This document shows positions 52 through 39,875 of a stretch of DNA of 41,146 bases, one piece after another (within the stretch, counting starts at the first letter, position 1; every line of letters starts with the position of its first letter). The stretch is from Candidatus Magasanikiibacteriota bacterium. Lineage in GTDB: Bacteria; Patescibacteriota; Patescibacteriia; Magasanikbacterales; GWA2-37-8. Location of the stretch: contig CALRGC010000007.1 in NCBI GenBank assembly GCA_943357105.1, forward strand, positions 1 to 41,146, given 5' to 3'. A model generated the notes under the pieces. It did not search any database, was not told the DNA's origin, and worked only from the letters and a program-made list of their open reading frames with translations. The translations under genes and the position numbers were made by a program.

Positions 52-690
52 CTAGATTAGTTGATTTAACTGATTAAAAGCTTCCTTCGGGTCGGCCGCG
101 CCAATGATTGCGCTCCCTACACAGAAATTATGTATTCCCCATTTTTTCACCATCTGAATATTTTCTTTTTTAATCGCCCCGTCTACCGCCAATTGCGGAC
201 GATAGTTTCTTTCCGATAAAATTTTATTTAATTTTTTAATATGTTTTTCTACTTGCGGCACAAACGGCGCGCCTTGTCGACCGGGGTACACGGTCATAAA
301 TAACACCACTTCCAGATCTTTTAAAAAAGGATGAATTTTTTCTACGGCGGTGTCTGGGTTGATGGCTAGTCCAGCGTCAAATCCGTTTTTTTTAATCGTA
401 TCAATAGTTTCGGCAATGTCATCTTGGCATTCAAAGTGAAAAATTACACGAGAAACATTTTTTACTTTTTTCCATTTTTGCAGTTCGGCTATGGGATGCT
501 CTACCATCAGATGTAGTTCCCATTCATTTTTTAAATTCAAACCGTTTATTTTTTCAATTTCTTCAAAAGATTTATTTGGGACAAATTGGCCGTCCATCAC
601 GTCGATTTGGATGATTGGAGAAAAAGATAATTTTTTGGCTTGCTCAGCAAACTCGGCAAAAGTCTTGACCAGGATAGCGGGGATAATCAT
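52..690 (-). CDS. rpe: Ribulose-phosphate 3-epimerase
   Basis: 212 aa, the usual length for Rpe, a cytoplasmic TIM barrel that interconverts ribulose-5-P and xylulose-5-P. Family landmarks are IDVMDGQFVPN (residues 29-39), HLMVE (60-64), the phosphate-loop-like VYPGRQG (134-140), AVDGAI (168-173) and VGSAI near the C-terminus. Asp30, His60 and Asp170 match three of the four metal ligands. The fourth, normally His two residues before the first Asp, is Gln28 here. The gene starts 6 bp after rpiB and ends 2 bp before the flavoprotein gene, so the three look co-transcribed. No SD is visible. Identification is firm; whether the Gln changes metal use is open. Confidence 0.92.
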   Translation of the reverse strand: MIIPAILVKTFAEFAEQAKKLSFSPIIQIDVMDGQFVPNKSFEEIEKINGLNLKNEWELHLMVEHPIAELQKWKKVKNVSRVIFHFECQDDIAETIDTIKKNGFDAGLAINPDTAVEKIHPFLKDLEVVLFMTVYPGRQGAPFVPQVEKHIKKLNKILSERNYRPQLAVDGAIKKENIQMVKKWGIHNFCVGSAIIGAADPKEAFNQLNQLI

Positions 691-696
691 AAAAAT

Positions 697-1134
697 TTAT
701 TTTTCCAGTTTGGAAATTTTTGCATTCCGGCGTACCAAGCGTTCACTGCTTTCAAATTTGGTTTGCAAAAATTTTTTTACAATCGCGTCGGCATGATCAT
801 TGGAAAGCACGCGCCCGGCCAAGCACAGAATGTTGGCGTCATTGTGGCGGCGACCCATTTCGGCCGCTTCGATACTGTAGCCCAAAATAGCTCGAGCGCC
901 TTTGACTTTATTGGCAGTAATACAGACTCCGTGTCCGGTACCGCAAACTAAAATTCCAATATCTTTTTTGGTGATTTTTTTAGCCAAGGGAGCGGCATAA
1001 TCCGGGAAGTCGTCGTCTTTATCAAATTTTTTTGGACCAAGATCTTTTATTTTCTGGCGCAATTGGGTTTTGATATAGGTGGTCAGGTGTTTTTTGAGCT
1101 GAAATCCAGCGTGATCGGAGGCAATATAGAGCAT
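697..1134 (-). CDS. rpiB: Ribose-5-phosphate isomerase B
   Basis: 145 aa, typical for the RpiB/LacAB family that interconverts ribose-5-P and ribulose-5-P. It begins MLYIASDHAGFQLKK, carries the active-site segment LVCGTGHG with the catalytic Cys, then ITANKVKGARA and RRHNDANIL. It supplies the substrate of the adjacent Rpe. First gene of the minus-strand operon; the ATG is about 24 nt from a good -10 box at 1158-1163. No SD. Confident call. Confidence 0.94.
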   Translation of the reverse strand: MLYIASDHAGFQLKKHLTTYIKTQLRQKIKDLGPKKFDKDDDFPDYAAPLAKKITKKDIGILVCGTGHGVCITANKVKGARAILGYSIEAAEMGRRHNDANILCLAGRVLSNDHADAIVKKFLQTKFESSERLVRRNAKISKLEK

Positions 1135-1157
1135 ATGTTTTTATTATTAACTAACTA

Positions 1158-1187
1158 ATTATACCATTTTGTCTTTATATTTGGCAA
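1158..1187 (-). promoter_or_regulatory. Promoter of rpiB-rpe operon
   Basis: On the minus strand TTGCCA (1187-1182), 18-nt spacer, TATAAT (1163-1158), with an extended TGG just before the -10. It faces away from the ileS promoter at 1196-1224; the two are separated by only 8 bp at their -35 ends. Confidence 0.7.
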
Positions 1188-1195
1188 ACTTAAAA

Positions 1196-1224
1196 TTGAC
1201 AAAATACAAATGTCTTGTTAAACT
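1196..1224 (+). promoter_or_regulatory. Promoter of ileS leader
   Basis: TTGACA (1196-1201), 17-nt spacer, TAAACT (1219-1224). Transcription would start near 1231, giving a leader of about 180 nt that contains the whole T-box. Confidence 0.7.
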
Positions 1225-1230
1225 AAATTC

Positions 1231-1408
1231 ATAAAGCATTTTACCCGTCATCAGCGGGGAGCTGAAAGTAGAAATTCGCTAAATTTAGCGAAAAATAGAC
1301 CTTTCCGGGTAGGCCCGTTACTGCCTAAATTAAGCAAAAGCTCAAGATGGTACCGTCCTGATTAATTGGGACTCTTGGCACGAATATTTTCGTGTTTTTT
1401 ATTTTTTA
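1231..1408 (+). promoter_or_regulatory. T-box leader of ileS with downstream intrinsic terminator
   Basis: The decisive element is the antiterminator: CAAGA (1343-1347) pairs with TCTTG (1373-1377), followed by the seven-base bulge TGGTACC (1348-1354, the invariant UGGNACC that binds the tRNA acceptor end), then GTCC (1355-1358) pairing with GGAC (1369-1372). Upstream lie a CCCG/CGGG hairpin (1244-1258) with ATC in its loop (1250-1252, possible Ile specifier), a 9-bp hairpin around 1273-1290, and GGCCCGTTACTGCC (about 1312-1325), resembling the stem II/pseudoknot region. A terminator hairpin CACGAA/TTCGTG (1379-1394) with a long T run precedes the ATG. Uncharged tRNA-Ile should raise ileS expression. 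The specifier assignment is inferred; the antiterminator is directly readable. Confidence 0.88.
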
Positions 1409-1413
1409 TAAAT

Positions 1414-4323
1414 ATGTATAATTCAGAACAAAACGAACAAGAAATTTTGAAATATTGGGATAAGAAACAGGTTTTTGAAAAATCTATTTCACAGCGTCCA
1501 GAAAATAAGCCTTATGTTTTTTATGATGGCCCTCCTTTTGCGACTGGTTTGCCACACTACGGCCATATAGTGGCCTCGCTGATGAAAGATACAGTGCCGC
1601 GCTACTACACAATGCGTGGTTTTCGCGTCGATAGAAAATGGGGTTGGGATTGCCATGGTTTGCCCGTAGAAAATATTATCGAAAAAGAATTAAATCTCAA
1701 TAGCAAAAAAGATATTGAGGCATTTGGCGTGGATAAATTCAATGAAGCTTGTCGGGCCACGGTTTTGAAATATGCCGAGGAATGGAAAAAAACAGTGCGT
1801 CGCATGGGTCGCTGGGTGGATATGGAAAATGATTACAAAACCATGGATCTCTCTTATATGGAGAGTGTATGGTGGGTGTTCAAAGAATTGTATAAGAAAA
1901 ATTTATTGTACAAAGGGCATAAAGCGATGCATGTTTGTACACGTTGTGTGACCCCACTTTCGAATTTTGAAGTGACGCAGGGGTATAAGGATGTGAAGGA
2001 TTTGACGGTGACGGCGAAATTTAAATTAAATACTACTAAAAAATTTGGTGTAGATGGCGATGTGTTTGTGCTCGCTTGGACTACTACGCCTTGGACTTTG
2101 CCGGGGAATGTTTTGTTGGCGGTGAATAAAGAATTGGATTATGTGGTAGCTAAAATTGAAAATGAAAATTTTGTCTTAGCCAAAGATTTGGTGGAGTCGG
2201 TTTTAAAAGATAAAAATTTTAGTGTTGTAAAAGAATTAAAAGGTTTGGATTTGGTGGGCCTTACTTATGAACCGCTCTTTCCATATTTCAAAGATAGTCC
2301 AAATTCTTTCCGCGTCGTAGAAGGGGGTTTTGTCACCACCACCGAAGGTACGGGTATCGTGCATATTGCGCCGGCCTTTGGTGATGAGGATTATCAGATT
2401 GGCAAACGCGAAGGTATTCCTTTGGTCCAGCATGTCACGATGGACGGCAGATTTATTGAAGAAGTGGAAGATTTTGCTGGGCATGAAGTGAAGCCAGCTA
2501 ATGAGCCGACTGCTACTGATGTGGAAATAATTAAATGGCTCGCGGCTAATGGAAAATTATTTTCTAAATTAAAAATCGAACACAGTTATCCGCACTGTTG
2601 GCGTTGTGATACTCCACTTTTGAGTTATGCTACTAATAGCTGGTTTGTAAAAGTGACGGAAATTAAAGAGCAACTATTGAAAAATAATCAGCAAATAAAT
2701 TGGGTGCCGGAGCATATTAAAGACGGCCGTTTTGGTCTGTGGCTCGAAGGCGCGCGCGATTGGGCGGTGTCACGCAATCGTTTTTGGGGTGATCCATTGC
2801 CAGTGTGGGAAAGCGCGGACGGTGATACTATCTGTGTGGGCAGTGTGGCTGAGCTGGAAGAATTGTCCGGTGTGAAAGTGAATGATTTGCATAAACATGT
2901 AATCGATAAAATCGAAATAAAAAAAGATGGCAAAGTTTATCACCGTGTGCCGGAAGTTTTGGATTGTTGGTTTGAGTCTGGTTCGATGCCTTATGGCCAG
3001 ATGCATTATCCGTTTGAAAACAAAGCTAAATTTGAAGCGGGTTTTCCAGCGGAATTTATTGCCGAGGGACAAGATCAGACCCGCGGTTGGTTTTATACTT
3101 TGCATATTTTGGCGACGGCTCTTACCCTGGGGGATAAACCATCTATACCAAAAGAAGCCAGCGTGCCCGCTTTTCGTAATGTGATAGTCAATGGCATTGT
3201 GTTGGCCGAAGATGGTAAAAAGATGAGTAAGCGTCTGAAAAATTATCCGGAGCCGGATATTTTACTCGAAAAATATGGCGCCGACGCGATGCGTTATTAT
3301 TTGATTACTTCGCCGGTAATGGAATCGGAAGCTTTAAATTTTTCCGAAACCGGTGTGCGCGAAATGTACGGCAAAGTGGTGAATACGTTGTGGAATGTAG
3401 TGGAATTTTATCAGATGTATCCGGTCGCTAATGCGGAAAATTTAGTTTCCGATCATGTTTTGGATCAGTGGATAATGGCTAAGCTCAATGAACTGATAAA
3501 AGCCGTTACGGTTGGAATGGAAGAGTACCGTCTAGCTGCGGCGAGTCGTCCGATTGTCGAATTTATTACGGAATTATCGCAGTGGTATGTGCGCCGTAGT
3601 CGCGATCGCTTCAAGGGTGATGATGCGGAAGATAAAGCTAAAGCGTCGGCAACTTTGAAATCAGTTTTGCTAATCTTATCCAAGGTGATGGCGCCGTTCA
3701 CTCCTTTTATCGCGGAAAAAATTTATTTGATTCTAGGTGGTGAATTGGAAAGCGTGCATTTGGAAATATGGCCAACTTATAAAGAAGAGAAATATCACAA
3801 CACCGTGCTGGAACATATGACCAAAGCTCGCCAATTTGTAGAAATGGGTTTGGCTTTGCGCAATGAAAATAAATTAAAAGTGCGTCAGCCACTTCATGAG
3901 CTCAAGATGAATTACGAACATTTTTCCGATCAGCTTCTCGAAATGATCGCCGATGAATTAAATGTGAAAAAGGTGAGCTATGCCGAAGCGGTGGTGGAAG
4001 CTAATTGGGCGGCCAAAGAAGATGGAAAAAATAAGATCTGGCTTAATACTTTTGTTGATGAACAACTAAAAAAAGAAGGCCTTGCCCGTGAGATTATCCG
4101 TACTATAAATCAAATGCGTAAAGAGCAGGGTTTGACCATCAACGATCGGATAATACTAAAATATAGTACTGAGCAGGCTATTTTAGGCCAAGTTTTTGAG
4201 AATTTTAATGTCGAAATCATGGCGGCGGTTTTGGCTAATTCAATAGAAAAAACGGCTAAAATTGAGCCTTTAAGTGAAATTGATGGTCAAAAATGTGGTT
4301 TAGTCATAGAAAAAGCTAATTGA
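1414..4323 (+). CDS. ileS: Isoleucyl-tRNA synthetase (type 2)
   Basis: 969 aa from ATG 1414. An upstream in-frame TTG at 1366 lies inside the antiterminator loop and is rejected. Charges tRNA-Ile. Class I signatures: PHYGH in GPPFATGLPHYGHIVA (the HIGH motif, near residue 50) and GKKMSKR (KMSKS, near residue 600), with a large editing insertion between them and an anticodon-binding region after. The sequence around HIGH and WGWDCHGLPVE is of the eukaryote-like type 2 that is usually insensitive to mupirocin (family knowledge). No SD before the ATG; expression is evidently set by the T-box. Confidence 0.96.
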   Translation: MYNSEQNEQEILKYWDKKQVFEKSISQRPENKPYVFYDGPPFATGLPHYGHIVASLMKDTVPRYYTMRGFRVDRKWGWDCHGLPVENIIEKELNLNSKKDIEAFGVDKFNEACRATVLKYAEEWKKTVRRMGRWVDMENDYKTMDLSYMESVWWVFKELYKKNLLYKGHKAMHVCTRCVTPLSNFEVTQGYKDVKDLTVTAKFKLNTTKKFGVDGDVFVLAWTTTPWTLPGNVLLAVNKELDYVVAKIENENFVLAKDLVESVLKDKNFSVVKELKGLDLVGLTYEPLFPYFKDSPNSFRVVEGGFVTTTEGTGIVHIAPAFGDEDYQIGKREGIPLVQHVTMDGRFIEEVEDFAGHEVKPANEPTATDVEIIKWLAANGKLFSKLKIEHSYPHCWRCDTPLLSYATNSWFVKVTEIKEQLLKNNQQINWVPEHIKDGRFGLWLEGARDWAVSRNRFWGDPLPVWESADGDTICVGSVAELEELSGVKVNDLHKHVIDKIEIKKDGKVYHRVPEVLDCWFESGSMPYGQMHYPFENKAKFEAGFPAEFIAEGQDQTRGWFYTLHILATALTLGDKPSIPKEASVPAFRNVIVNGIVLAEDGKKMSKRLKNYPEPDILLEKYGADAMRYYLITSPVMESEALNFSETGVREMYGKVVNTLWNVVEFYQMYPVANAENLVSDHVLDQWIMAKLNELIKAVTVGMEEYRLAAASRPIVEFITELSQWYVRRSRDRFKGDDAEDKAKASATLKSVLLILSKVMAPFTPFIAEKIYLILGGELESVHLEIWPTYKEEKYHNTVLEHMTKARQFVEMGLALRNENKLKVRQPLHELKMNYEHFSDQLLEMIADELNVKKVSYAEAVVEANWAAKEDGKNKIWLNTFVDEQLKKEGLAREIIRTINQMRKEQGLTINDRIILKYSTEQAILGQVFENFNVEIMAAVLANSIEKTAKIEPLSEIDGQKCGLVIEKAN

Positions 4324-31891: not shown

Positions 31892-31963
31892 GCACCCATC
31901 GTTCAATGGATAGGACACTGGCCTGCGAAGCCGGAAATTTAGGTTCGACTCCTAATGGGTGCA
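31892..31963 (+). tRNA. tRNA-Arg (anticodon GCG)
   Basis: Acceptor GCACCCA/TGGGTGC, D-stem GTTC/GGAC, anticodon stem CTGGC/GCCGG with loop CTGCGAA, T-stem TTAGG/CCTAA with loop TTCGACT, discriminator A, no CCA. The anticodon GCG is unusual: bacteria normally read CGU/CGC with ACG deaminated to ICG. The island begins just after this gene. Confidence 0.94.
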
Positions 31964-32000
31964 CAACCGGGGAGCCTGTTGAACCAACAGGTTTCAAAAT

Positions 32001-32031
32001 AAAACTGCGCTATGTTGCGCGGTTTTTGTTT
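32001..32031 (+). terminator. Terminator after tRNA-Arg
   Basis: AAAACTGCGC (32001-32010) pairs with GCGCGGTTTT (32017-32026), followed by T-rich sequence. A smaller CCTGTTG/CAACAGG hairpin precedes it at about 31976-31992. Confidence 0.85.
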
Positions 32032-32040
32032 TCGCAAAAA

Positions 32041-33495
32041 TCAGTTCGGCGTTCCTTTTTGCCTGAGAGTGGTTAGGAGTCGAACCCGTTGTAACCGTTG
32101 GTACCATTGGGTTTTTATGAGCATCTTCTGGTTTGTTAGGTCGACCGAAGCGACGAGTCCGCTCAATATCCTTCTGCGCTCTATGCAATCTGCTGTCAAA
32201 TTCCAGTCTTTCAGGTCGTCGAGTAGGCGAACCATTCCAACGATTTCTGGATCTGCGTCGCCTTCGTGCTCGCTGGTCGCCAATATGAAGAGTACCAATC
32301 GTTGTGACTCACGCAATTGGCGATGTTCGTGTGTAAAATCATCATCAGTGATAAGCCCTTGGCTGAGTCGGCGTGCCAATTCACGCTTGTCTTCGTCGAG
32401 GCCACGAAGTCGTTGTCGCAATGCGCGCACGTCGGCAATCTGTCGCTCATCGCGATTTCGTTTTGATCGTTTCAACTCTGCCGACAATGACGGCAAGAGC
32501 CTTTCCGGCAACTTCAATGCAAGCAAATCCCGTTCCACAAACTCTTCTGGCACAGCTGCCCGAATACAAAACCTGCAGAACTGCCGGTGACAACGGTAGT
32601 ACCGGAAAACCTTCTTGGATTTTTTCACATGCCGTTCACCTACAAGCGTTGCGCAACATCGTGGACACCGAATCAATCCAGCCAGCAAGAATTCATGATG
32701 CTGTCTCGGCGTCCCTCGTCTTCCTTTTTGCTGGAAAACTTCCTGACATCTTTCAAATAATTCCCGAGAGACCAACTGTGGATGCCGGCCAGGATATTCG
32801 CCAGACGCAGTTTTCATGATGCCGGTGTAGAAGACATTTTTCAAGATTCCGCAGAGTTTCGTTCCTGCCAGTCGCTTGCCATTTCGGCCGACGAGTCCGC
32901 GTTCAAAAAGTTCGTCCGCTAATTTGGTCGACGTCACTGTTCCACTTGCCCAACGCTCAAAGGCAAACCGAAGATGCTCCGACCGTGCCGGGTCCAATCG
33001 TATCTTACCGTCATCATTTAGATATCCAATCGCAACGCAACCGCTCCAAAGCCCTTTGCGTCGTCTTTCCTCCAGTCCTTTCTTCACCTCGAAAGAAAGA
33101 TTTGCGCTGTAGAATTCAGCTTGTGCTGCCATAATATGTTCCATAAACTCGCCCATAGGGTTATCTTCGAATCGTTCCACGACGGACACAATGTTCACGC
33201 CGCACGTTCGAAGCTGGCCCTTGATAGTGAGATATTGATAAGTATTTCTTGAAAGTCTATCTGCCTTGTGAACGATCAAGTGATTGACTTCTCCGTTTCG
33301 CGCCAGGCGTAATGCTGCTGACAGTCCAGGTCTTTTCGTCAGCGACCAACCCGACGCTACATCCTGGAACTCGCCAGCGATTTTCCAACCGCGTTCAGTG
33401 GCATACGTTCTGAGCGAACGCAACTGCGCTGGAATGGACAGCTCCTTCTCGGCTTGTTGCCCGGTGGAGACCCGGGCGTATATGACCACAGACAT
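32041..33495 (-). CDS. Large serine recombinase (site-specific integrase)
   Basis: 484 aa from ATG 33495. The resolvase domain opens MSVVIYARVSTGQQ with catalytic Ser10, and HKADRLSRNTY carries the Arg cluster. A recombinase domain (CVAIGYLNDDGKIRLD onward), a zinc ribbon (CPRCCATLVG...CHRQFCRFC) and a coiled-coil-rich C-terminus follow, as in phage and ICE integrases. Base composition is visibly more GC-rich than the host genes. Its 3' end points at tRNA-Arg and includes an inverted 14-bp copy of the tRNA T-arm. It likely moves the island, but element ends are not defined. Confidence 0.93.
   Translation of the reverse strand: MSVVIYARVSTGQQAEKELSIPAQLRSLRTYATERGWKIAGEFQDVASGWSLTKRPGLSAALRLARNGEVNHLIVHKADRLSRNTYQYLTIKGQLRTCGVNIVSVVERFEDNPMGEFMEHIMAAQAEFYSANLSFEVKKGLEERRRKGLWSGCVAIGYLNDDGKIRLDPARSEHLRFAFERWASGTVTSTKLADELFERGLVGRNGKRLAGTKLCGILKNVFYTGIMKTASGEYPGRHPQLVSRELFERCQEVFQQKGRRGTPRQHHEFLLAGLIRCPRCCATLVGERHVKKSKKVFRYYRCHRQFCRFCIRAAVPEEFVERDLLALKLPERLLPSLSAELKRSKRNRDERQIADVRALRQRLRGLDEDKRELARRLSQGLITDDDFTHEHRQLRESQRLVLFILATSEHEGDADPEIVGMVRLLDDLKDWNLTADCIERRRILSGLVASVDLTNQKMLIKTQWYQRLQRVRLLTTLRQKGTPN
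32073..32086 (-). repeat. Inverted copy of tRNA-Arg T-arm within the recombinase 3' end
   Basis: On the minus strand GGTTCGACTCCTAA is identical to 31942-31955 of tRNA-Arg on the plus strand. In the recombinase it is read as coding sequence (VRLLT). A candidate attachment-site relic, though a true integration would normally leave direct, not inverted, copies. Confidence 0.6.
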
Positions 33496-33631
33496 AGTGA
33501 TAATGGTTATGAGTAAATACCTTCCATTGTCACATTGATAATCTATTATCTCAAAAATATCGAATTGGTGTAACGTTGCCAAATTGGACTTTTGTGGCCT
33601 GTCTTTATTCGTGTGTGAATCATCTCCATCT

Positions 33632-33649
33632 TGTTTCCCCGGGGAAACA
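33632..33649. promoter_or_regulatory. 18-bp perfect palindrome between recombinase and HNH genes
   Basis: TGTTTCCCCGGGGAAACA, arms of 9 bp. It lies 10 bp before the -35 of the HNH gene and about 140 bp upstream of the recombinase start. It could be an operator for the divergent pair or the attachment-site core of the recombinase; it lacks a T run, so it is not a terminator. Confidence 0.45.
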
Positions 33650-33658
33650 GGGATGCCA

Positions 33659-33687
33659 TTGAATCATGTTTGCCATTCATGTATAGT
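33659..33687 (+). promoter_or_regulatory. Promoter of HNH gene
   Basis: TTGAAT (33659-33664), 17-nt spacer, TATAGT (33682-33687). The ATG at 33696 sits at about the predicted transcript start. Confidence 0.5.
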
Positions 33688-33695
33688 TAGCTGAT

Positions 33696-34481
33696 ATGAT
33701 ACCTAACAAGAATAAATTCGGCCTTGCCAGAAATATTCCGGAGTCCGTAAAGCGAGAAGTCAGACAGCGTAGCGGCTTTGGTTGTGTACTGTGTGGTTTG
33801 TGGCTCTACACATATGAGCATATCGAGCCTGAATTTCATGCTGCGACGACACATGATCCAAATTGTATCTGCCTGTTGTGCCCGAATCATCATTCTAGAG
33901 TAACAAAGGGACTCATAAGCAAGGCGGCGATAATGGATGCGTACCGGCGACCAAGAGCGATTGAATTAGGCTATGGACATGATAGAGAGTTTTGGCCATT
34001 ACAGAGACCGATTGAAGTGGCGTTGGGTCAGTTGAAATTCATTGACCCTACGGTAATGATTTCAACAGAACATGACGAGGTCTTGTTGGCCGTCAGCAAT
34101 AGTGAAATTGGAACTCTCCAGTTGTCTGGGAAATTCTATGATTCAAATGGGCGTCTCTGTTTGGAGATTGTTAACAATGAGTGGAGAGCAATGGTCAGCA
34201 ACTGGGATGTGAGCTTGGTTGGCAACCTATTGAAAATAGTGGATTCGGATGGCAATCTCGTACTTAGTGTCCGACCAGTTTCCAAGAACAAGATTGTTTT
34301 CGATTATTTGCACATGTATCATCATGGGTTTTCCATCAACACTCGTCACGGCGAGTCAATTTCAATACTCTCACCAAATGGTGGGGGTATAAGTGAAATG
34401 AACGAAGTGGTGACTGGCGGTCCAATTGTTGTCTCCGACTCTGGCGGGATGATAGTGCGGGGCGGTGTAAGAATTTCATGA
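33696..34481 (+). CDS. HNH endonuclease with beta-rich C-terminal domain
   Basis: 261 aa. The HNH zinc fold uses CVLC (30-33) and CLLC (59-62) with EHIEPE (41-46) and CPNHHSRVTKG (62-72) as the metal-binding/catalytic part. Residues ~95-261 are a beta-rich tail with short alternating strands (GTLQLSGKFYDSNGRLCLEI, NNEWRAMVSNWDVSLVG). HNH nucleases occur as homing endonucleases, restriction enzymes and defence effectors; the tail could be a sensor or target-binding part. Next to a serine recombinase. Near-leaderless, no SD. Confidence 0.85.
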   Translation: MIPNKNKFGLARNIPESVKREVRQRSGFGCVLCGLWLYTYEHIEPEFHAATTHDPNCICLLCPNHHSRVTKGLISKAAIMDAYRRPRAIELGYGHDREFWPLQRPIEVALGQLKFIDPTVMISTEHDEVLLAVSNSEIGTLQLSGKFYDSNGRLCLEIVNNEWRAMVSNWDVSLVGNLLKIVDSDGNLVLSVRPVSKNKIVFDYLHMYHHGFSINTRHGESISILSPNGGGISEMNEVVTGGPIVVSDSGGMIVRGGVRIS

Positions 34482-34570
34482 TGCGATAATCAGGTATCAA
34501 CTTGAGAAGTACGGAGTTTCTCTCCAACATTTGCATGGCTAATCAAAGTTCTGATAATCTCCTGAGCGCT

Positions 34571-34608
34571 GCACATAGAAGACGCTTTTTATAAAAAGGC
34601 GTTTTTTT
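34571..34608 (+). terminator. Terminator after HNH gene, junction A
   Basis: ACGCTTTTT (34582-34590) pairs with AAAAAGGCGT (34593-34602), then T7. The preceding GCACATAGAAG and the GGCGT-T-rich right arm resemble the terminator after the Fic gene (38741-38777), so it belongs to the repeated cassette junction. Confidence 0.85.
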
Positions 34609-34611
34609 ATA

Positions 34612-34638
34612 TCAACTAAGAGTTGAAATGGAGTTTGC
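34612..34638 (+). repeat. R1 repeat, copy 1 (upstream of helicase)
   Basis: TCAACTAA, four variable bases, then TGAAATGGAGTTTGC. The same 27-bp unit recurs at 37649-37675 upstream of fic, with differences only in the four-base gap. It is preceded by a matching GGCGT plus T tract. It contains ATGGAGTTTGC, which could start a tiny ORF, but transcription of the helicase starts after it. Confidence 0.8.
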
Positions 34639-34647
34639 CATGGTTTG

Positions 34648-34676
34648 TAGACAAACAAATCAAAAGCGGATATAAT
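34648..34676 (+). promoter_or_regulatory. Promoter of helicase gene
   Basis: TAGACA (34648-34653), 17-nt spacer, TATAAT (34671-34676). Predicted start near 34683, about 21 nt before the ATG. Confidence 0.75.
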
Positions 34677-34703
34677 TATTCCATACTAAAATAATGATTC
34701 ATT

Positions 34704-36962
34704 ATGCCATTTGGAGAAGGATATCGACCAAAACCACCGGAGGAATTATCTCTACAATTAGAATCAGCCCAGGATGCGGTCGGTCAAGACGCTGAACATT
34801 CTTTGGTTCCTGAGTCGCAAGATAAAGAAAAAATAATGCAGATGTCCGAAGCGGAATTGAAACAAAAGTTCTCTCGCCGTTATGAAATGTATTTACAATT
34901 ATTGCGTGACCAAAAAAGACAAGAGAAAACCGGAGAAAGTAATTTGTCTACAGAAGATATTGAAGAAATGAAAAAATGGTTAGGCATTTTAAATTCTCTG
35001 GACTTATATATTAAAAAACACCACAAAGGAGAAGAAGTTACATTACGCGGTAAGCAAATAGACGTTTTTGATAGCATGAGAAATTTTCTAGAAGAAGGTG
35101 GTATTGAAGGCTATGTAAAATTACCAACTGGTGTTGGTAAAACCGTTTTGTTCACCGAGCTGATAGAAGCCATGGATGTAAAAACACTGATTGTGGTACC
35201 AACTAAAATTTTGGTTGACCAAACTGGACAAAAAATAGAGCAGTTTGCTCCCGACTTAGATTTTGGTAAAGTTTATACATATGCCAAAGAGCACGGTAGA
35301 CAAGTCACAATCATTACCTACAGCTCATTAGTTTCTCAAGTAGGTGATGGTCAAATAAAGCCCGAGGATTTTGACTGTCTAATTTTAGACGAAGCTCATG
35401 AATCTCTTAGTAAAACAAGACAAGAAATCGTAAAAAAGTTTGAAGGAGCAATTAAGCTTGGTTTCACTGCTACACCAGATTATTCACAGAAGAAAAAGTT
35501 GTCTAATTTACTTGAAACAGAAATTCACTCAATGAAAATTCGCGAAGCAGTAGAATCTGGAATGTTGTGCGGCGTATCTTCAATAATTGTGAAAACTCAG
35601 GTGGATATGTCTAGTGTTCCAGTAGATAAAAAAGGTGAATATGAAGAAAAGGAATTAGAAAAGGCCGTAAATGTGGCTGGTCGCAATAAAGCCGCCGTTG
35701 AACTATATAATAGGGCCTATGCTGGTGAATTGGCGGTAGCTTATTGTGTAGGTATTGATCACGCTATGGCAGTGGCTGAAGCATTTAAAAAAGAGGGGAT
35801 AGAAGCTGAATATATAACTGGTAAAACTCCTAAAAAAGATCAAGAAAAAATATTAGAGAGATTCCACAATGGTGAAATTAAGGTGTTATGTAATGCGGAT
35901 TTACTCATTGCCGGTTTTGATGAGCCAAGAGCCGGTGTATGTTTGAATTTGCGTCCTACTATGTCTCATATAGATGCGGAACAGCGCGGTGGCCGCGTGC
36001 TTCGTCTAGATGAAGATAAGCCAAATAAGCACGCTATAGTGGTTGATTTTTTGGATCAAAATTATTCCGAAGACAAACCCCCTGTATTATTTGCTGATGT
36101 TGCCGAAGGTGCTCTTTTTCTTCCTCCGGGAGTTGATGTGTCTGAAGGGGGCGAGAGAGGAAGTGAGCCGCCAATTACAGAATATATAGACATTGAAGGA
36201 GTTGAAGTTATATATGATTCTGAAGAGGTGATGAGAATTGTTGGGAAGATAAGAGAGAGCAAAGAAAGATCAGAAAAATTTTTGACATTTCAAGAATTAA
36301 AAGAAGCTGTTAAAAAAGCTGGTATTAGCACTGTTGAGGATTACAAAGATAATTATAAATTTTATAAAGATGATGGATGGCCTAGCAATCCAAATAGTTA
36401 TTACGGAGAAGAATGGATTAGTTGGCCAGATCTTTTTGGGAAAGAAAGTGTTTCATTTTTGTCTTATGAAAAATTAAAAGAAGCTGTTAAAAAAGCTGGT
36501 GTAAAAACAAAAAGAGGATATGTAGAAGAGAGTAAAAAACACATTGATTGGCCTTCTAACCCCGCAACTATAAGTATCTATAGTGGGTTATGGGAAAGTT
36601 GGGAGAAATTTTGTGATACAGAAAATTTATCACTCTTTGCTTTAAAAGAAGCTGTGAAAGTTGCAAAAATTAAGAATAGTACTCATTATTTTGAAGTATA
36701 TAAAAAATATAAAGGTTGGCCTTCTAGTCCAGAACAAGTTTATGAAGATTGGCCCGGTTGGGGAAAATTTATTGAACAAGATAAAAAAATAATTTTAAAT
36801 TTTTCAGATTTAAAAGAAGAAGTTTTTACTGCGAAAGTAATTGGTAGAAGAGAGTATAGAAAAGAATATAAAAACCACGCTGGTTGGCCAGCTGTTCCAG
36901 AGGTTTATTTTAAAGATGTATGGAGAGGATGGGATGATTTTCTAGGAAAGAATAGAAAATAG
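34704..36962 (+). CDS. SF2 DEAH helicase with four C-terminal integrase-repeat-like units
   Basis: 752 aa. A charged N-terminal region (~1-110) precedes a two-lobe SF2 core of the type I/III restriction and UvrB-like group: Q-like RGKQIDVFDSM, motif I PTGVGKT (141-147), motif II DEAH (229-232), motif III TATP (255-258), motif VI QRGGRVLR (427-434). From ~529 to the end are four units of about 50 residues, at ~529-579, 587-638, 644-690 and 700-748, each with LKEAVKKAG at the start, a WPSNP-like middle and W-x2-W-x2-F(LG) at the end. They resemble phage-integrase repeat units (INT_rpt). The fusion suggests a DNA-sensing helicase, possibly defence. Bounded by R1 and R2 repeats. Confidence 0.88.
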   Translation: MPFGEGYRPKPPEELSLQLESAQDAVGQDAEHSLVPESQDKEKIMQMSEAELKQKFSRRYEMYLQLLRDQKRQEKTGESNLSTEDIEEMKKWLGILNSLDLYIKKHHKGEEVTLRGKQIDVFDSMRNFLEEGGIEGYVKLPTGVGKTVLFTELIEAMDVKTLIVVPTKILVDQTGQKIEQFAPDLDFGKVYTYAKEHGRQVTIITYSSLVSQVGDGQIKPEDFDCLILDEAHESLSKTRQEIVKKFEGAIKLGFTATPDYSQKKKLSNLLETEIHSMKIREAVESGMLCGVSSIIVKTQVDMSSVPVDKKGEYEEKELEKAVNVAGRNKAAVELYNRAYAGELAVAYCVGIDHAMAVAEAFKKEGIEAEYITGKTPKKDQEKILERFHNGEIKVLCNADLLIAGFDEPRAGVCLNLRPTMSHIDAEQRGGRVLRLDEDKPNKHAIVVDFLDQNYSEDKPPVLFADVAEGALFLPPGVDVSEGGERGSEPPITEYIDIEGVEVIYDSEEVMRIVGKIRESKERSEKFLTFQELKEAVKKAGISTVEDYKDNYKFYKDDGWPSNPNSYYGEEWISWPDLFGKESVSFLSYEKLKEAVKKAGVKTKRGYVEESKKHIDWPSNPATISIYSGLWESWEKFCDTENLSLFALKEAVKVAKIKNSTHYFEVYKKYKGWPSSPEQVYEDWPGWGKFIEQDKKIILNFSDLKEEVFTAKVIGRREYRKEYKNHAGWPAVPEVYFKDVWRGWDDFLGKNRK

Positions 36963-36980
36963 TTTTTATTTCAAGTGTTA

Positions 36981-37006
36981 TCAAACACAGTTTGCCACCT
37001 TACCCG
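36981..37006 (+). repeat. R2 repeat, copy 1 (downstream of helicase)
   Basis: 26 bp beginning TCAAACACAGTTTG and ending TTACCCG, identical to 38707-38732 after fic. It contains the small dyad CAAAC-ACA-GTTTG and the AGTTTGC core also found in R1. The similarity extends a little further on both sides (TTATTTCAA before, TTCTG after). Confidence 0.88.
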
Positions 37007-37032
37007 ATATTCTGTACAATCTGCACAAAAAG

Positions 37033-37064
37033 AAATACACCAAATTAATTGGTGTATTTTTATA
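37033..37064. terminator. Terminator between helicase and the 37160 gene
   Basis: AATACACCAA (37034-37043) pairs with TTGGTGTATT (37049-37058), with a T run to the right and an A run to the left, so it serves both convergent genes. Confidence 0.88.
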
Positions 37065-37159
37065 TCCTGAACTGGTCTCGTATTTTGTATTTATTGAATA
37101 CACCATACGAGATGCGACCAGTCCAGAGAACCGACCGCCCCCGTCCTTACGGCATTCAA

Positions 37160-37555
37160 TCACAGGTGTGGTACCTTTTTCCACTTCCTCAGACACTTGC
37201 CGTCGAGATCAATGTCTTCGAACATGCCGCGAGGAGGTCCCCAGCAGACAGCGCCTTCCTGGAAAACAAACTCGTACCTACCAGGCTTGATTCCAGCAGG
37301 CATCTCTCCCCGAAGTTCCAACTCGATGGTCAGGTCGAAGTGGTCTGGACCGAGTTTGGCGCTGTGAAGAATGGCTTCGAGCCTGTAGGGTGACATGCGG
37401 GTCACCCAGTCGGTTCCATTTTTCACAGATTTGTCATTCCCGGGCTGCATATGAATACAGCCCTTATTGGCCAATTTCTTGAAGAAGTTCTTGGCCGTAG
37501 TGCGCGTAGCAGGACCGCTGATCACCATGATGTTGTACAGTTCGTGCGCCTTCAT
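37160..37555 (-). CDS. Unidentified GC-rich small protein
   Basis: 131 aa from ATG 37555, the start with a proper SD (GAGGAG, 9 nt away). An ATG 33 nt earlier is only 3 nt from the -10 box and cannot be translated from this promoter. The N-terminus (HELYNIMVISGPATRTTAKNFFKKLA) could be a winged helix; the rest (HFDLTIELELRGEMPAGI, YEFVFQEGAV) looks beta-rich. No family recognised. Much more GC-rich than its neighbours; it appears inserted into a repeated cassette junction (see findings). Confidence 0.6.
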   Translation of the reverse strand: MKAHELYNIMVISGPATRTTAKNFFKKLANKGCIHMQPGNDKSVKNGTDWVTRMSPYRLEAILHSAKLGPDHFDLTIELELRGEMPAGIKPGRYEFVFQEGAVCWGPPRGMFEDIDLDGKCLRKWKKVPHL

Positions 37556-37564
37556 TGATGTTTT

Positions 37565-37619
37565 CTCCTCGGTTTTTATAACCGCCATGATATTATAGTT
37601 AATAAATTTAATTTGTCAA
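37565..37619 (-). promoter_or_regulatory. Promoter, 5' hairpin and SD of the 37160 gene
   Basis: TTGACA (37619-37614), 16-nt spacer, TATAAT (37597-37592), then hairpin CGGTT/AACCG (37584-37570) and SD GAGGAG (37570-37565). The host genes of this window lack this hairpin-plus-SD arrangement. Confidence 0.8.
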
Positions 37620-37633
37620 TTATAAGGTGTTAG

Positions 37634-37675
37634 GGCGTCTTTTTTATCTCAACTAACAGGTGAAATGGAGTTTGC
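37634..37675 (+). repeat. R1 repeat, copy 2, with terminator remnant (upstream of fic)
   Basis: GGCGTC plus T tract (37634-37646) then TCAACTAA-N4-TGAAATGGAGTTTGC (37649-37675), matching 34598-34638. The sequence just before (AAGGTGTTAG) looks like a degraded left part of the junction terminator. Confidence 0.8.
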
Positions 37676-37696
37676 TATATTTATGGGGGGTGTTTA

Positions 37697-37749
37697 TAAC
37701 TTTATAAAGTTAATCTAAATTTGACAAACTTTATAAAGTTTGGTATTAT
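37697..37749 (+). promoter_or_regulatory. fic promoter with two palindromic operators
   Basis: TAACTTTATAAAGTTA (37697-37712) and CAAACTTTATAAAGTTTG (37725-37742) are perfect palindromes sharing AACTTTATAAAGTT, with centres 29 bp apart. TTGACA (37721-37726) and TATTAT (37744-37749) flank the second one, which fills the 17-nt spacer, so a bound repressor would block polymerase. The N-terminal HTH of the Fic protein is the obvious candidate. Confidence 0.8.
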
Positions 37750-37758
37750 GGTTATATT

Positions 37759-38691
37759 ATGAATATAAGGCAAAAATTAGAAATTATTCAAAAAATGTCC
37801 GGTCTTACCCAGACTAAATTGGCTGACAAACTCGGCGTGTCTTTTGTGGCTTTTAATAACTGGTGGAATGAAAAGTCGGTACCGAGAGCAAAAATGCGGA
37901 CTGCTATTGATGAATTATTTTTGGAAATGACCGGGCAAAAAATAATTCCTGCCAATCAACTGATTGCCAAAAAAGAATTTTTAAATAAAAAATCTTCAGA
38001 ACATAAAAATATTCTAAAGGAAATTTTGGCCAATCCAGATATCCGCGACCAATTTATTTTGAAATTGACCTATCATAGTAATAGTATCGAGGGGAGTACG
38101 CTTACCGAGCCTGATACCGCGGCTGTTATTTTTGACAACGTGGCTTTGCCCAACAAAAGTCTGGCCGAACAAATGGAAGCAAAAAATCATCAGACTGCCT
38201 TGAATTTTCTATTTAATCATATCGCTAAAAAAGAAAAAATTGATGAAGATTTTATATTAAAATTACATAGCATTTTAATGAATGGTATTCAATCGGACGC
38301 TGGTTTATATCGCCGCCACGGTGTAAGAATTATTGGAGTTAATTTGGCTACAGCCAATTATTTGAGTGTTCCGAAGTTAGTTTCTGAGATTATATCGCAG
38401 GCGGAGAAAATTACCCATGATATAATTTCTTTGTCCGCTGATATCCATAGACGATTTGAACAAGTCCATCCTTTTTCTGATGGCAACGGTCGGGTCGGGC
38501 GTTTGCTGATGACAGCGATGTTATTGAAAGAAAATTTAGCACCGGCGATTATTCAGCAACAACAGAAGAGATTGTACTATGCTTATTTATATAAAGCCCA
38601 AACTAAAAAAGACAACAGTCAACTAGAAAATTTTTTGTGTGACGCGGTGATGGATGGATTTGATATTTTGGAGCGGAAAGATGTGAGATGA
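37759..38691 (+). CDS. Fic-domain protein with N-terminal XRE-type HTH
   Basis: 310 aa. Residues 1-60 are a Cro/CI-like HTH (GLTQTKLADKLGVSFVAFNNWW). The Fic core has the full catalytic motif HPFSDGNGRVGR (237-248) and the inhibitory helix SNSIEG (107-112) in front of it, so it is a class II, self-inhibited AMP-transferase. Targets of such proteins vary; many act as toxins or regulators. The HTH plus twin operators imply autorepression. The ATG lies about 3 nt from the predicted transcript start, so the mRNA is leaderless. Bounded by R1 and R2 repeats. Confidence 0.92.
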   Translation: MNIRQKLEIIQKMSGLTQTKLADKLGVSFVAFNNWWNEKSVPRAKMRTAIDELFLEMTGQKIIPANQLIAKKEFLNKKSSEHKNILKEILANPDIRDQFILKLTYHSNSIEGSTLTEPDTAAVIFDNVALPNKSLAEQMEAKNHQTALNFLFNHIAKKEKIDEDFILKLHSILMNGIQSDAGLYRRHGVRIIGVNLATANYLSVPKLVSEIISQAEKITHDIISLSADIHRRFEQVHPFSDGNGRVGRLLMTAMLLKENLAPAIIQQQQKRLYYAYLYKAQTKKDNSQLENFLCDAVMDGFDILERKDVR

Positions 38692-38706
38692 TTTTATTTC
38701 AAATTC

Positions 38707-38732
38707 TCAAACACAGTTTGCCACCTTACCCG
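38707..38732 (+). repeat. R2 repeat, copy 2 (downstream of fic)
   Basis: Identical over 26 bp to 36981-37006, placed 15 bp after the fic stop as copy 1 is placed 18 bp after the helicase stop. Confidence 0.88.
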
Positions 38733-38750
38733 TTTTTCTGCACTATGTAG

Positions 38751-38777
38751 GACACCTTCATCAAAAGGCGTCTTTTA
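38751..38777 (+). terminator. Terminator after fic, junction D
   Basis: GACACCTT (38751-38758) pairs with AAGGCGTC (38765-38772), one A-C mismatch, then a T tract. The right arm and T tract match junctions A and C. Confidence 0.75.
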
Positions 38778-38783
38778 TTATTT

Positions 38784-39113
38784 TTATTTTGCAGAATAAA
38801 TTCCAGCCCTTACTTGTTTTACCACTGACCCTTGATACAAACGGATCGCCGGTCTGTTTTCTTTTTTATAATTATAAAAAGTTCCAATTACTTTTTTACA
38901 GGCAGAACATTTAAAGTCTCCGGTTTTTTTGGTTTTAATTTTTGGAGCGAAAATTCTGTCCAGATACATTCGTTTGAGTTCTCCCGGCCCATCTTTTTGG
39001 TATAACACCAAATGCGCGCTGCAACTGTCGCAAAGAATATTCAGGAAACGCGCATAGCCACCGCGGTTTTTTCTGTATCGGTCATTTTTTAATTTAAAAT
39101 ATTGTTTTGGCAT
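38784..39113 (-). CDS. Small zinc-ribbon protein
   Basis: 109 aa, basic. Two CxxC pairs, CDSC (28-31) and CSAC (near 73-76), form a zinc ribbon separated by a Lys-rich stretch. N-terminus FKLKNDRYRKNRGGYARFLN. Ordinary host-like composition. Nothing in context identifies the role; single gene with its own promoter, nucleic-acid binding being the default inference. Confidence 0.7.
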   Translation of the reverse strand: MPKQYFKLKNDRYRKNRGGYARFLNILCDSCSAHLVLYQKDGPGELKRMYLDRIFAPKIKTKKTGDFKCSACKKVIGTFYNYKKENRPAIRLYQGSVVKQVRAGIYSAK

Positions 39114-39139
39114 ATTTATCTTAGAATTTAGGTAGTCAT

Positions 39140-39168
39140 ATTTTATCAGTAATGATTTTTATTGTCTA
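39140..39168 (-). promoter_or_regulatory. Promoter of zinc-ribbon gene
   Basis: TAGACA (39168-39163), 17-nt spacer, TAAAAT (39145-39140) with extended TGA; about 20 nt to the ATG. Confidence 0.6.
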
Positions 39169-39179
39169 ACTTGCATTTA

Positions 39180-39240
39180 TTGCATTTTTAAAAATTTATG
39201 TTAGTATGTTTGCAAACCAGCAATCCACTAGCTGGTAGGA
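39180..39240 (+). promoter_or_regulatory. Promoter, 5' hairpin and SD of cytidine deaminase gene
   Basis: TTGCAT (39180-39185), 16-nt spacer, TAGTAT (39202-39207) with extended TGT. Then hairpin ACCAGC/GCTGGT (39215-39236) and SD AGGA (39237-39240) 7 nt before the ATG at 39248. Confidence 0.65.
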
Positions 39241-39247
39241 AATGAAC

Positions 39248-39757
39248 ATGTTGGAACTTCAGATTTCCGGTCGTGTTCGGGTTTGTTCCTGGAAAGAGAT
39301 GGTCGAGTCCGATCGTGTACTTTTGGCTCAGGCCATTCGCGTGCGCGAGCACGCTAGTGTGCCGGTGTCTGGTTTCATGGTCGGTGCGGCTCTTCGTCCT
39401 GTCGGAACGGATAGAATTTTCCGTGGTTGTAACGTCGAGGATCGCGCCCAGACCAGCACGATTCACGCCGAAGCGGCCGCCCTGGCGGCGATGGTTTCTA
39501 ATCTTGGTTCGCAGGCGCTCTGCGACACCCTCGCCATCGCGCTTGGACCCAGCAGCAAAAGGATCACCAGCCCGCCAGAGCAGAGTCTGCAACAGATCAC
39601 GCGGCTCTCGGAAATTCGGTATACCCCGTGTGGTCACTGCCGCGGTCTGATCAGCCAATACGGTGGGGGTGAAATCCGTTTCGTGTGTCTGCAAGACAAC
39701 GGACAGATCGCCATCGGTACCATGGCCGACTTCTTTCCGTGTGGTTTCGAGCTGTAA
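39248..39757 (+). CDS. cdd: Cytidine deaminase
   Basis: 169 aa from ATG 39248, chosen because AGGA is 7 nt away; ATG 39242 would be only 1 nt from it. SGFMVGAALRP, GCNVEDRAQTSTIHAEAAAL (zinc His and catalytic Glu) and YTPCGHCRGLIS (PCxxC) are the Cdd signature. Converts cytidine/deoxycytidine to uridine forms in salvage. Clearly GC-rich compared with the host genes, so probably acquired. It complements, rather than repeats, the host dCMP deaminase at 18549. Confidence 0.93.
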   Translation: MLELQISGRVRVCSWKEMVESDRVLLAQAIRVREHASVPVSGFMVGAALRPVGTDRIFRGCNVEDRAQTSTIHAEAAALAAMVSNLGSQALCDTLAIALGPSSKRITSPPEQSLQQITRLSEIRYTPCGHCRGLISQYGGGEIRFVCLQDNGQIAIGTMADFFPCGFEL

Positions 39758-39758
39758 A

Positions 39759-39845
39759 CTACACCAAACCTCATCTTCCGAAATATGGTGGGGTAGAACG
39801 GCCTTAGACCGTTCCATCCGCAAGGATGTCTTGGCCGCCAGGCCA
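39759..39845 (+). ncRNA. Row of stable hairpins after cdd, possible structured RNA
   Basis: CTAC/GTAG outer stem (39759-39762 with 39793-39796), GAACGG/CCGTTC (39796-39801 with 39809-39814), ATCC-GCAA-GGAT with a GNRA loop (39816-39827), TGGCC/GGCCA (39832-39845). No ORF covers it on the plus strand. May be a long structured 3' UTR protecting cdd mRNA, or a separate RNA; no known family recognised. Confidence 0.4.
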
Positions 39846-39875
39846 GGTGGGGAGGGAAAATGGTCTGACACTTCG

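Follow-up and report, generated by a model that had tools for sequence, protein, structure and literature searches.

The locus described here raises the question of what an SF2 helicase does with a C-terminal array of repeats of the phage-integrase type. We analyzed the whole stretch of 41,146 nucleotides that carries it (the window), which is one whole contig (CALRGC010000007.1) of a 925 kb, 98.8% complete genome of a Candidatus Magasanikiibacteriota bacterium.

An intact SF2 motor

The helicase gene and its parts are listed in Table 1. The all-helical N-terminal region was seen in the AlphaFold secondary structure and, by alignment, is common to this Patescibacteria helicase family. Pfam placed ResIII at residues 112-259 (6e-28) and Helicase_C at residues 337-435 (4e-14). 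The two RecA-like domains carry all core motifs of an SF2 helicase in intact form: Walker A LPTGVGKT (140-147), DEAH (229-232), TATP at 255 (TAT 255-257), and the motif VI QRGGRVLR (427-434). The full-length AlphaFold model (pLDDT 73) had RadD, XPB, and SauUSI as its best PDB matches in Foldseek, with RadD (8h5y, E 1e-17) at the top. The protein is not a RadD equivalog, as it scored 96 bits against NF053632, whose cut-off is 720. With Pfam, no nuclease family was found in residues 1-110 or in the tail, so the protein does not classify as a restriction enzyme. The nearest PADLOC profiles of the core were PbeA and type IV restriction enzymes, and these matches are to generic SF2 domains.

Table 1. 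Features of the helicase gene and its surroundings (positions in the window)
Feature	Position	Strand	Remark
tRNA-Arg	31892-31964		just left of island (31968-39860)
Serine recombinase (Resolvase, Recombinase, Zn_ribbon_recom)	32041..33582	-	adjoins tRNA-Arg
Left flanking repeat of helicase gene	34603..34641	+	90% identical to 37640-37678 before Fic gene
SF2 DEAH helicase, four INT_rpt-like units in tandem at the C terminus	34704..36962	+	752 aa, ATG start
N-terminal all-helical region, residues 1-110	34704..35033	+	alignments; AlphaFold secondary structure
SF2 RecA-like core, residues 112-435	35037..36008	+	Pfam, Foldseek, motifs
INT_rpt-like unit 1, residues 526-581	36279..36446	+	
INT_rpt-like unit 2, residues 585-640	36456..36623	+	
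INT_rpt-like unit 3, residues 641-693	36624..36782	+	
INT_rpt-like unit 4, residues 697-750	36792..36953	+	best Pfam match of the four
Right flanking repeat of helicase gene	36978..37020	+	88% identical to 38704-38746 after Fic gene
Fic/DOC protein, co-bordered neighbour	37759..38691	+	best PADLOC PDC-S04 9e-45, SoFic 6e-28

Four INT_rpt-like units form the tail

A linker separates the helicase core from an array of four units of ~54 residues, whose mean mutual identity is 40%. A profile built from 22 units of other proteins gave the tail 184 bits, or 42-58 bits per unit, compared to a maximum of 17 bits among 2000 shuffled tails. Since the 22 units had been collected with the window protein as the starting point, this score is not independent, and the independent tests are those with Pfam INT_rpt and with tblastn to VPA1269. 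PF14882 (Integrase repeat unit, INT_rpt) matched three stretches of the tail at E 5e-4 and 20.6 bits, short of its curated cut-off of 26.5 bits, which relatives of the units on other proteins exceeded (L285, 63 bits; L009, 37 bits; L294, 35.5 bits). With the tail alone as the tblastn query, VPA1269 family proteins on Pseudomonas plasmids were matched at 6e-19 over 98% of its length, and the tail thus consists of tandem ~54-residue units homologous to the VPA1269 arrays. HNH_repeat (PF18780) had no Pfam match in the tail. On sequence grounds we assign the tail to the INT_rpt-like units, with a score that is strictly below the cut-off. The original prediction had counted four repeat units behind the core and named the phage-integrase repeat family, and both statements held; the profile search agreed with it in family and fell short in score.

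Constant and variable parts of a unit

When units 3 and 4 were modeled as a pair (AlphaFold, pLDDT 85, pTM 0.49), each unit was predicted to fold as two helices of ~10 residues followed by two short helices. The tail was poorly modeled in the full-length prediction and, together with the pTM of the unit pair, this leaves the geometry of the array uncertain. A search of BFVD with the unit-pair model (Foldseek) recovered SF2 helicases of Bodo saltans virus (E 1.9e-3, prob 1.00), Klosneuvirus, and Catovirus, but comparison of the unit with the PDB, by sequence and by fold, gave no meaningful match. DNA binding by the units would thus be without structural precedent. At a net charge of +1, the tail of the window protein is electrostatically neutral (other arrays range from -4 to +21). 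The neutral charge and the missing precedent are the chief reasons for caution about any mechanism.

One Tyr (column 22) is invariant in the units of 13 proteins, and the unit also has a conserved L/W-P-S-x-P motif and a conserved W..W..FL(G) motif. Between units of one array, columns 19, 20, 23, 35, 37-39, 41, and 48 vary most. Variable positions stand beside the invariant Tyr and after P-S-x-P, and those that differ between units could simply be surface-exposed. Two arrays with 72-74% within-array identity were recently amplified (L257 and L258), and their differences favor the columns that vary elsewhere (Fisher p 4.6e-5, from pairs that are not independent). Diversifying selection on the variable positions was considered and rejected, since pN/pS was <1 in these two youngest arrays; there is thus no sign of positive selection despite the same columns varying.

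The helicase gene lies in a strain-specific island

Sister genomes of the same genus align with the window up to the tRNA-Arg gene. One of them (G385) realigns from 39861 with nothing between, so the region 31968-39860 is a strain-specific island; where sister contigs continue beyond the equivalent tRNA-Arg locus, they have nothing that matches it. The claim of a mobile island therefore stands. From the tRNA-Arg gene, the order is serine recombinase, a 261-aa protein, the helicase, a 142-aa minus-strand ORF, the Fic protein, and small ORFs. The recombinase is the probable mobility gene of the island. Its 3′ end contains a 14-bp perfect inverted copy of part of the tRNA-Arg gene (31942-31955 and 32073-32086), a possible attachment-site remnant. 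The 261-aa protein (33696-34481) has an HNH-like Cys/His pattern (CVLC...H...CLLCPNHH) and no match in Pfam or PADLOC. Near the right edge, a cytidine deaminase-like ORF (39242-39757; dCMP_cyt_deam_1, 4e-14) has a GC content of 57%, far above its surroundings. The island does not have the gene set of the gamma-mobile-trio elements (gmtX, the gmtY recombinase, and gmtZ side by side), whose primary description is cited in PMC12715929, as it has a serine recombinase and not GmtY.

One pair of repeats, left and right, encloses both the helicase gene and the Fic gene in the same order, and the two look like gene cassettes. The left repeat (~39 bp) contains TCAACTAAsAGkTGA, the right one is ~43 bp long (AAACACAGTTTGCCACCTTACCCG), and AGTTTGC is present in both. 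GC content is 36% in the helicase and Fic genes and 45-52% in those of the recombinase, the 261-aa protein, and the 142-aa ORF. The behavior of the helicase gene is that of an accessory gene that is mobile and dispensable.

The cassette borders had been put forward as a possible target of the repeats. We searched for further copies of the right repeat in the genome itself, in 24 other genomes of the family, in 380 other genomes of the class, and in IMG/VR, and found none. This genome has two copies of the border patterns, and the ~400 related ones have none. Flanking repeats that are found nowhere else are ruled out as a target conserved across the helicase family, and recognition of the borders is not supported; helicases with the same tail also stand amid housekeeping genes, as described below.

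Related helicases exchange their tails

A scan of GTDB contigs with a single sequence returned no relatives, and an alignment-based search was needed. The unit profile matched 7 of the 380 genomes of the phylum. Six members of the window's Patescibacteria helicase core family have INT tails of 2-6 units: the window protein (4 units), G586/L257 (3), G429/L258 (2), G048/L005 (6), G066/L007 (5), and L094 (6, diverged). In two of them, L007 and L257, an in-frame stop interrupts the core or the region ahead of it, so that the gene may be dispensable or the metagenome-assembled sequence faulty. A separate SF2 clade is INT-tailed as well (L017, 5 units; L285, 6 units), and in its sister helicases (L018 and L019) HNH_repeat arrays occupy that place (127 and 165 bits). 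In the tree, this HNH_repeat-bearing clade is distinct from the core clade of the window. The INT label requires about four changes on the tree, of which at least three are forced by well-supported branches; the count is approximate, the split gene L007 having been miscounted as "other." The INT units are thus recurrently paired with SF2 motors.

Other members of the window's core family have unrelated tails, among them a ~75-residue repeat in L095, and further members have no tail or a nonrepetitive one. L008/L042, with a more distant core, have yet another tail repeat. Tails are therefore exchanged between family members while the core is held constant. At L095 (JAQUAW010000016.1, 1-10601), four paralogous SF2 helicases form a tandem set, whose first member is truncated at the locus end; their cores are 62-80% identical and their ~75-residue repeat tails 28-49%. 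With cores kept and tails diverged, this set is the best indication that the protein changes fast in its tail, as a part that resembles a specificity determinant would. The L095 set adjoins a DNA polymerase III alpha-like gene.

INT-tailed relatives were found amid housekeeping genes: rpsP-khpA-trmD in L094, rnc in L038, and a primase/sigma region in L039. The L094 helicase is a single-gene insertion between khpA-like and trmD-like genes, downstream of rpsP (genes recognized by eye). No defense cluster was seen beside these three, and most INT-tailed chromosomal relatives have neither an adjoining recombinase nor adjoining defense genes. 

Two further proteins have unusual architectures. At 529-3627 on the minus strand of L019 (G036), one ORF of 1033 aa looks like a full sigma-70 factor (r1.2, r2, r3, r4) in fusion with an SF2 helicase and four HNH_repeat units. 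At 2673-8187 of L036 (G239, from the window's family), a 1328-aa protein has four N-terminal ~85-residue HTH-like repeats, an SNF2 helicase, and a methyltransferase, and the gene right behind it encodes a protein that carries three INT units.

INT units on plasmid, phage, and viral proteins

INT units span Patescibacteria, Gammaproteobacteria, Deinococcus, and large viruses. In NZ_CP084414, the VPA1269 gene matched by the tail sits between gmtY and a second VPA1269 gene, with gmtX next, and the gmtX-gmtY-gmtZ trio is present in Pseudomonas H1. A Deinococcus plasmid has a small stand-alone INT array near a Hin recombinase. On Shewanella plasmids that are conjugative or mobilizable (L091, L093), small stand-alone INT-unit proteins lie a few genes from a Tus-like replication terminus-binding gene.

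A viral scan with the window tail as the query gave no match, and the viral proteins were retrieved with phage-type and giant-virus-type units as queries. In the 485 kb phage LR745208, INT units follow an N-terminal half that looks HNH-like, and in viral L294-296 and L306 they are combined with a C terminus resembling a Vsr-type nuclease; both likenesses were seen by eye, with Pfam silent. Two viral proteins (L299/L300) carry 8-9 INT units, an SF2 domain, and Methyltransf_8 in one chain. The IMG/VR proteins L301/L302 consist of Mrr_cat_2, ResIII, Helicase_C, and four INT units. The C-terminal motor domain and all four units of L301 align with the window protein (BLASTP, 4e-22), and over residues 16-616 L301 fits a profile of type IIG restriction enzyme-methyltransferases (4.5e-89). 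Type IIG enzymes continue after the motor region into methyltransferase and target-recognition parts; the INT array of L301 stands where they carry these parts. The view that the units are usually attached to recombinases was hence too narrow, as they are also found on or beside nuclease-like, SF2, and methyltransferase proteins.

A candidate sequence-directed motor and its alternatives

Taken together, these data suggest that the helicase is probably a sequence-directed DNA translocase or helicase with an exchangeable C-terminal recognition array. A RadD/XPB/SauUSI-like SF2 motor (residues ~112-450) would be joined to the four-unit INT_rpt array as an exchangeable recognition module; the array would bind a specific DNA sequence, and the motor would then translocate or remodel the DNA, or whatever is bound there. 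The role of the units in DNA recognition is suggested by their company elsewhere, namely, GmtZ/VPA1269 beside the recombinase GmtY, and HNH-like, Vsr-like, Mrr-SF2, and SF2-methyltransferase proteins. From these partner domains, we consider it likely that the arrays bind DNA in a sequence-dependent manner, and there is a reasonable case that such binding directs the motor to a site. DNA recognition by repeats, as originally predicted, is in this sense reasonable; DNA as the ligand, the site specificity, the ATP-driven outcome, and the biological role are what we infer. A wider reading, to which we give tentative weight at most, is that SF2 translocases of Patescibacteria and large viruses might form a programmable-like class of motors, in which the arrays (INT_rpt, HNH_repeat, and other) would be modular sequence readers. 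Such readers would be gained, re-amplified, and exchanged on a retained motor, and their specificity would depend on the positions next to the Tyr and behind P-S-x-P.

Recognition of invading DNA, the other target proposed at the outset, would make the protein an anti-invader defense system, in which the array would recognize sequences from phages, plasmids, or rival elements, which the motor would clear or block; the protein would then act as a nuclease-free restriction motor. The location in an island, the SoFic/PDC-S04-like Fic protein as co-bordered neighbor, the nearest PADLOC profiles of the core, and the sporadic presence of the units in the phylum are consistent with this role, and the tandem L095 paralogues with diverged tails resemble diversified recognition. 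However, the PADLOC matches are to generic SF2 domains, the protein has no nuclease domain, and relatives with the same tail lie among housekeeping genes. We therefore regard defense as possible but rather unlikely, and the original proposal as not supported by the neighborhoods of most relatives.

It is unlikely that the protein is instead a mobility or maintenance helper, whose array would bind end or attachment sequences of its own element and whose motor would aid recombination, replication, or homing. INT_rpt arrays do occur beside recombinases (GmtY, Hin-family) and, on conjugative plasmids, near Tus-like genes; a serine recombinase and the shared flanking repeats adjoin the window gene, and the L094 copy is a single-gene insertion. 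Most chromosomal relatives have no recombinase alongside, though, and the flanking repeats of the window lack counterparts elsewhere.

If the units were a protein-protein or self-assembly module, the enzyme could be an ordinary RadD/XPB-type repair helicase, a reading in keeping with the neutral charge of the tail, with RadD as the closest solved fold, and with the housekeeping neighbors of the relatives. We consider it quite improbable, as the partners of the units elsewhere are DNA enzymes (a recombinase partner, nuclease-like proteins, a methyltransferase), at the corresponding position a sister SF2 clade carries a repeat that is annotated as homing-endonuclease-associated, and the sporadic distribution speaks against a core repair role. 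Finally, a chance tryptophan- and proline-rich tail without a real repeat family would accord with the score below the Pfam cut-off, but is refuted by the shuffle control (184 bits against at most 17), the VPA1269 match at 6e-19, and the Tyr that is invariant in every aligned unit of the 13 proteins, and has next to no likelihood.

Comparison with known systems

The VPA1269/GmtZ arrays of the gamma-mobile-trio have the same unit in tandem arrays on mobile DNA; in contrast to the helicase, the VPA1269 protein examined showed no SF2 motor, and the window is without a GmtX-GmtY-GmtZ operon. RadD (YejH), XPB, and SauUSI share the closest fold and the motif set with the window motor, but RadD and XPB have no INT array, and SauUSI (7clg) is a restriction endonuclease, whereas the window protein has no nuclease. 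The Patescibacteria helicases with HNH_repeat (PF18780) likewise join a related SF2 motor to C-terminal tandem repeats of ~54 residues at the same place, although the repeat family and the SF2 clade are different ones. Single-chain restriction enzymes of type I/IIG-like organization resemble the window protein by way of the viral L301 (Mrr nuclease, SF2, and C-terminal INT array); the window protein is unlike them in having no nuclease, methyltransferase, or known target-recognition domain.

A literature search for INT_rpt, for integrase repeat with helicase, and for VPA1269 found no paper, and INT_rpt is a named domain for which the literature searched held no functional description. Both the repeat and the motor of the window protein are of known kinds; their combination recurs, comes with exchangeable tails, and is apparently undescribed. 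The recurrent pairing of INT_rpt with motors, nuclease-like proteins, methyltransferases, and recombinase partners makes it a strong candidate for a DNA-recognition repeat that can be reused in different proteins. Should the units of an array read DNA one by one, these helicases would be a natural case of a motor that is aimed, and arrays with few differences between units would be the direct material from which to derive the code.

A diversified cluster of arrays was also observed on a viral contig (L298, 2542-9485), where a run of INT-array genes occupies ~7 kb and at least one of them is preceded by DUF723/treble-clef repeats.
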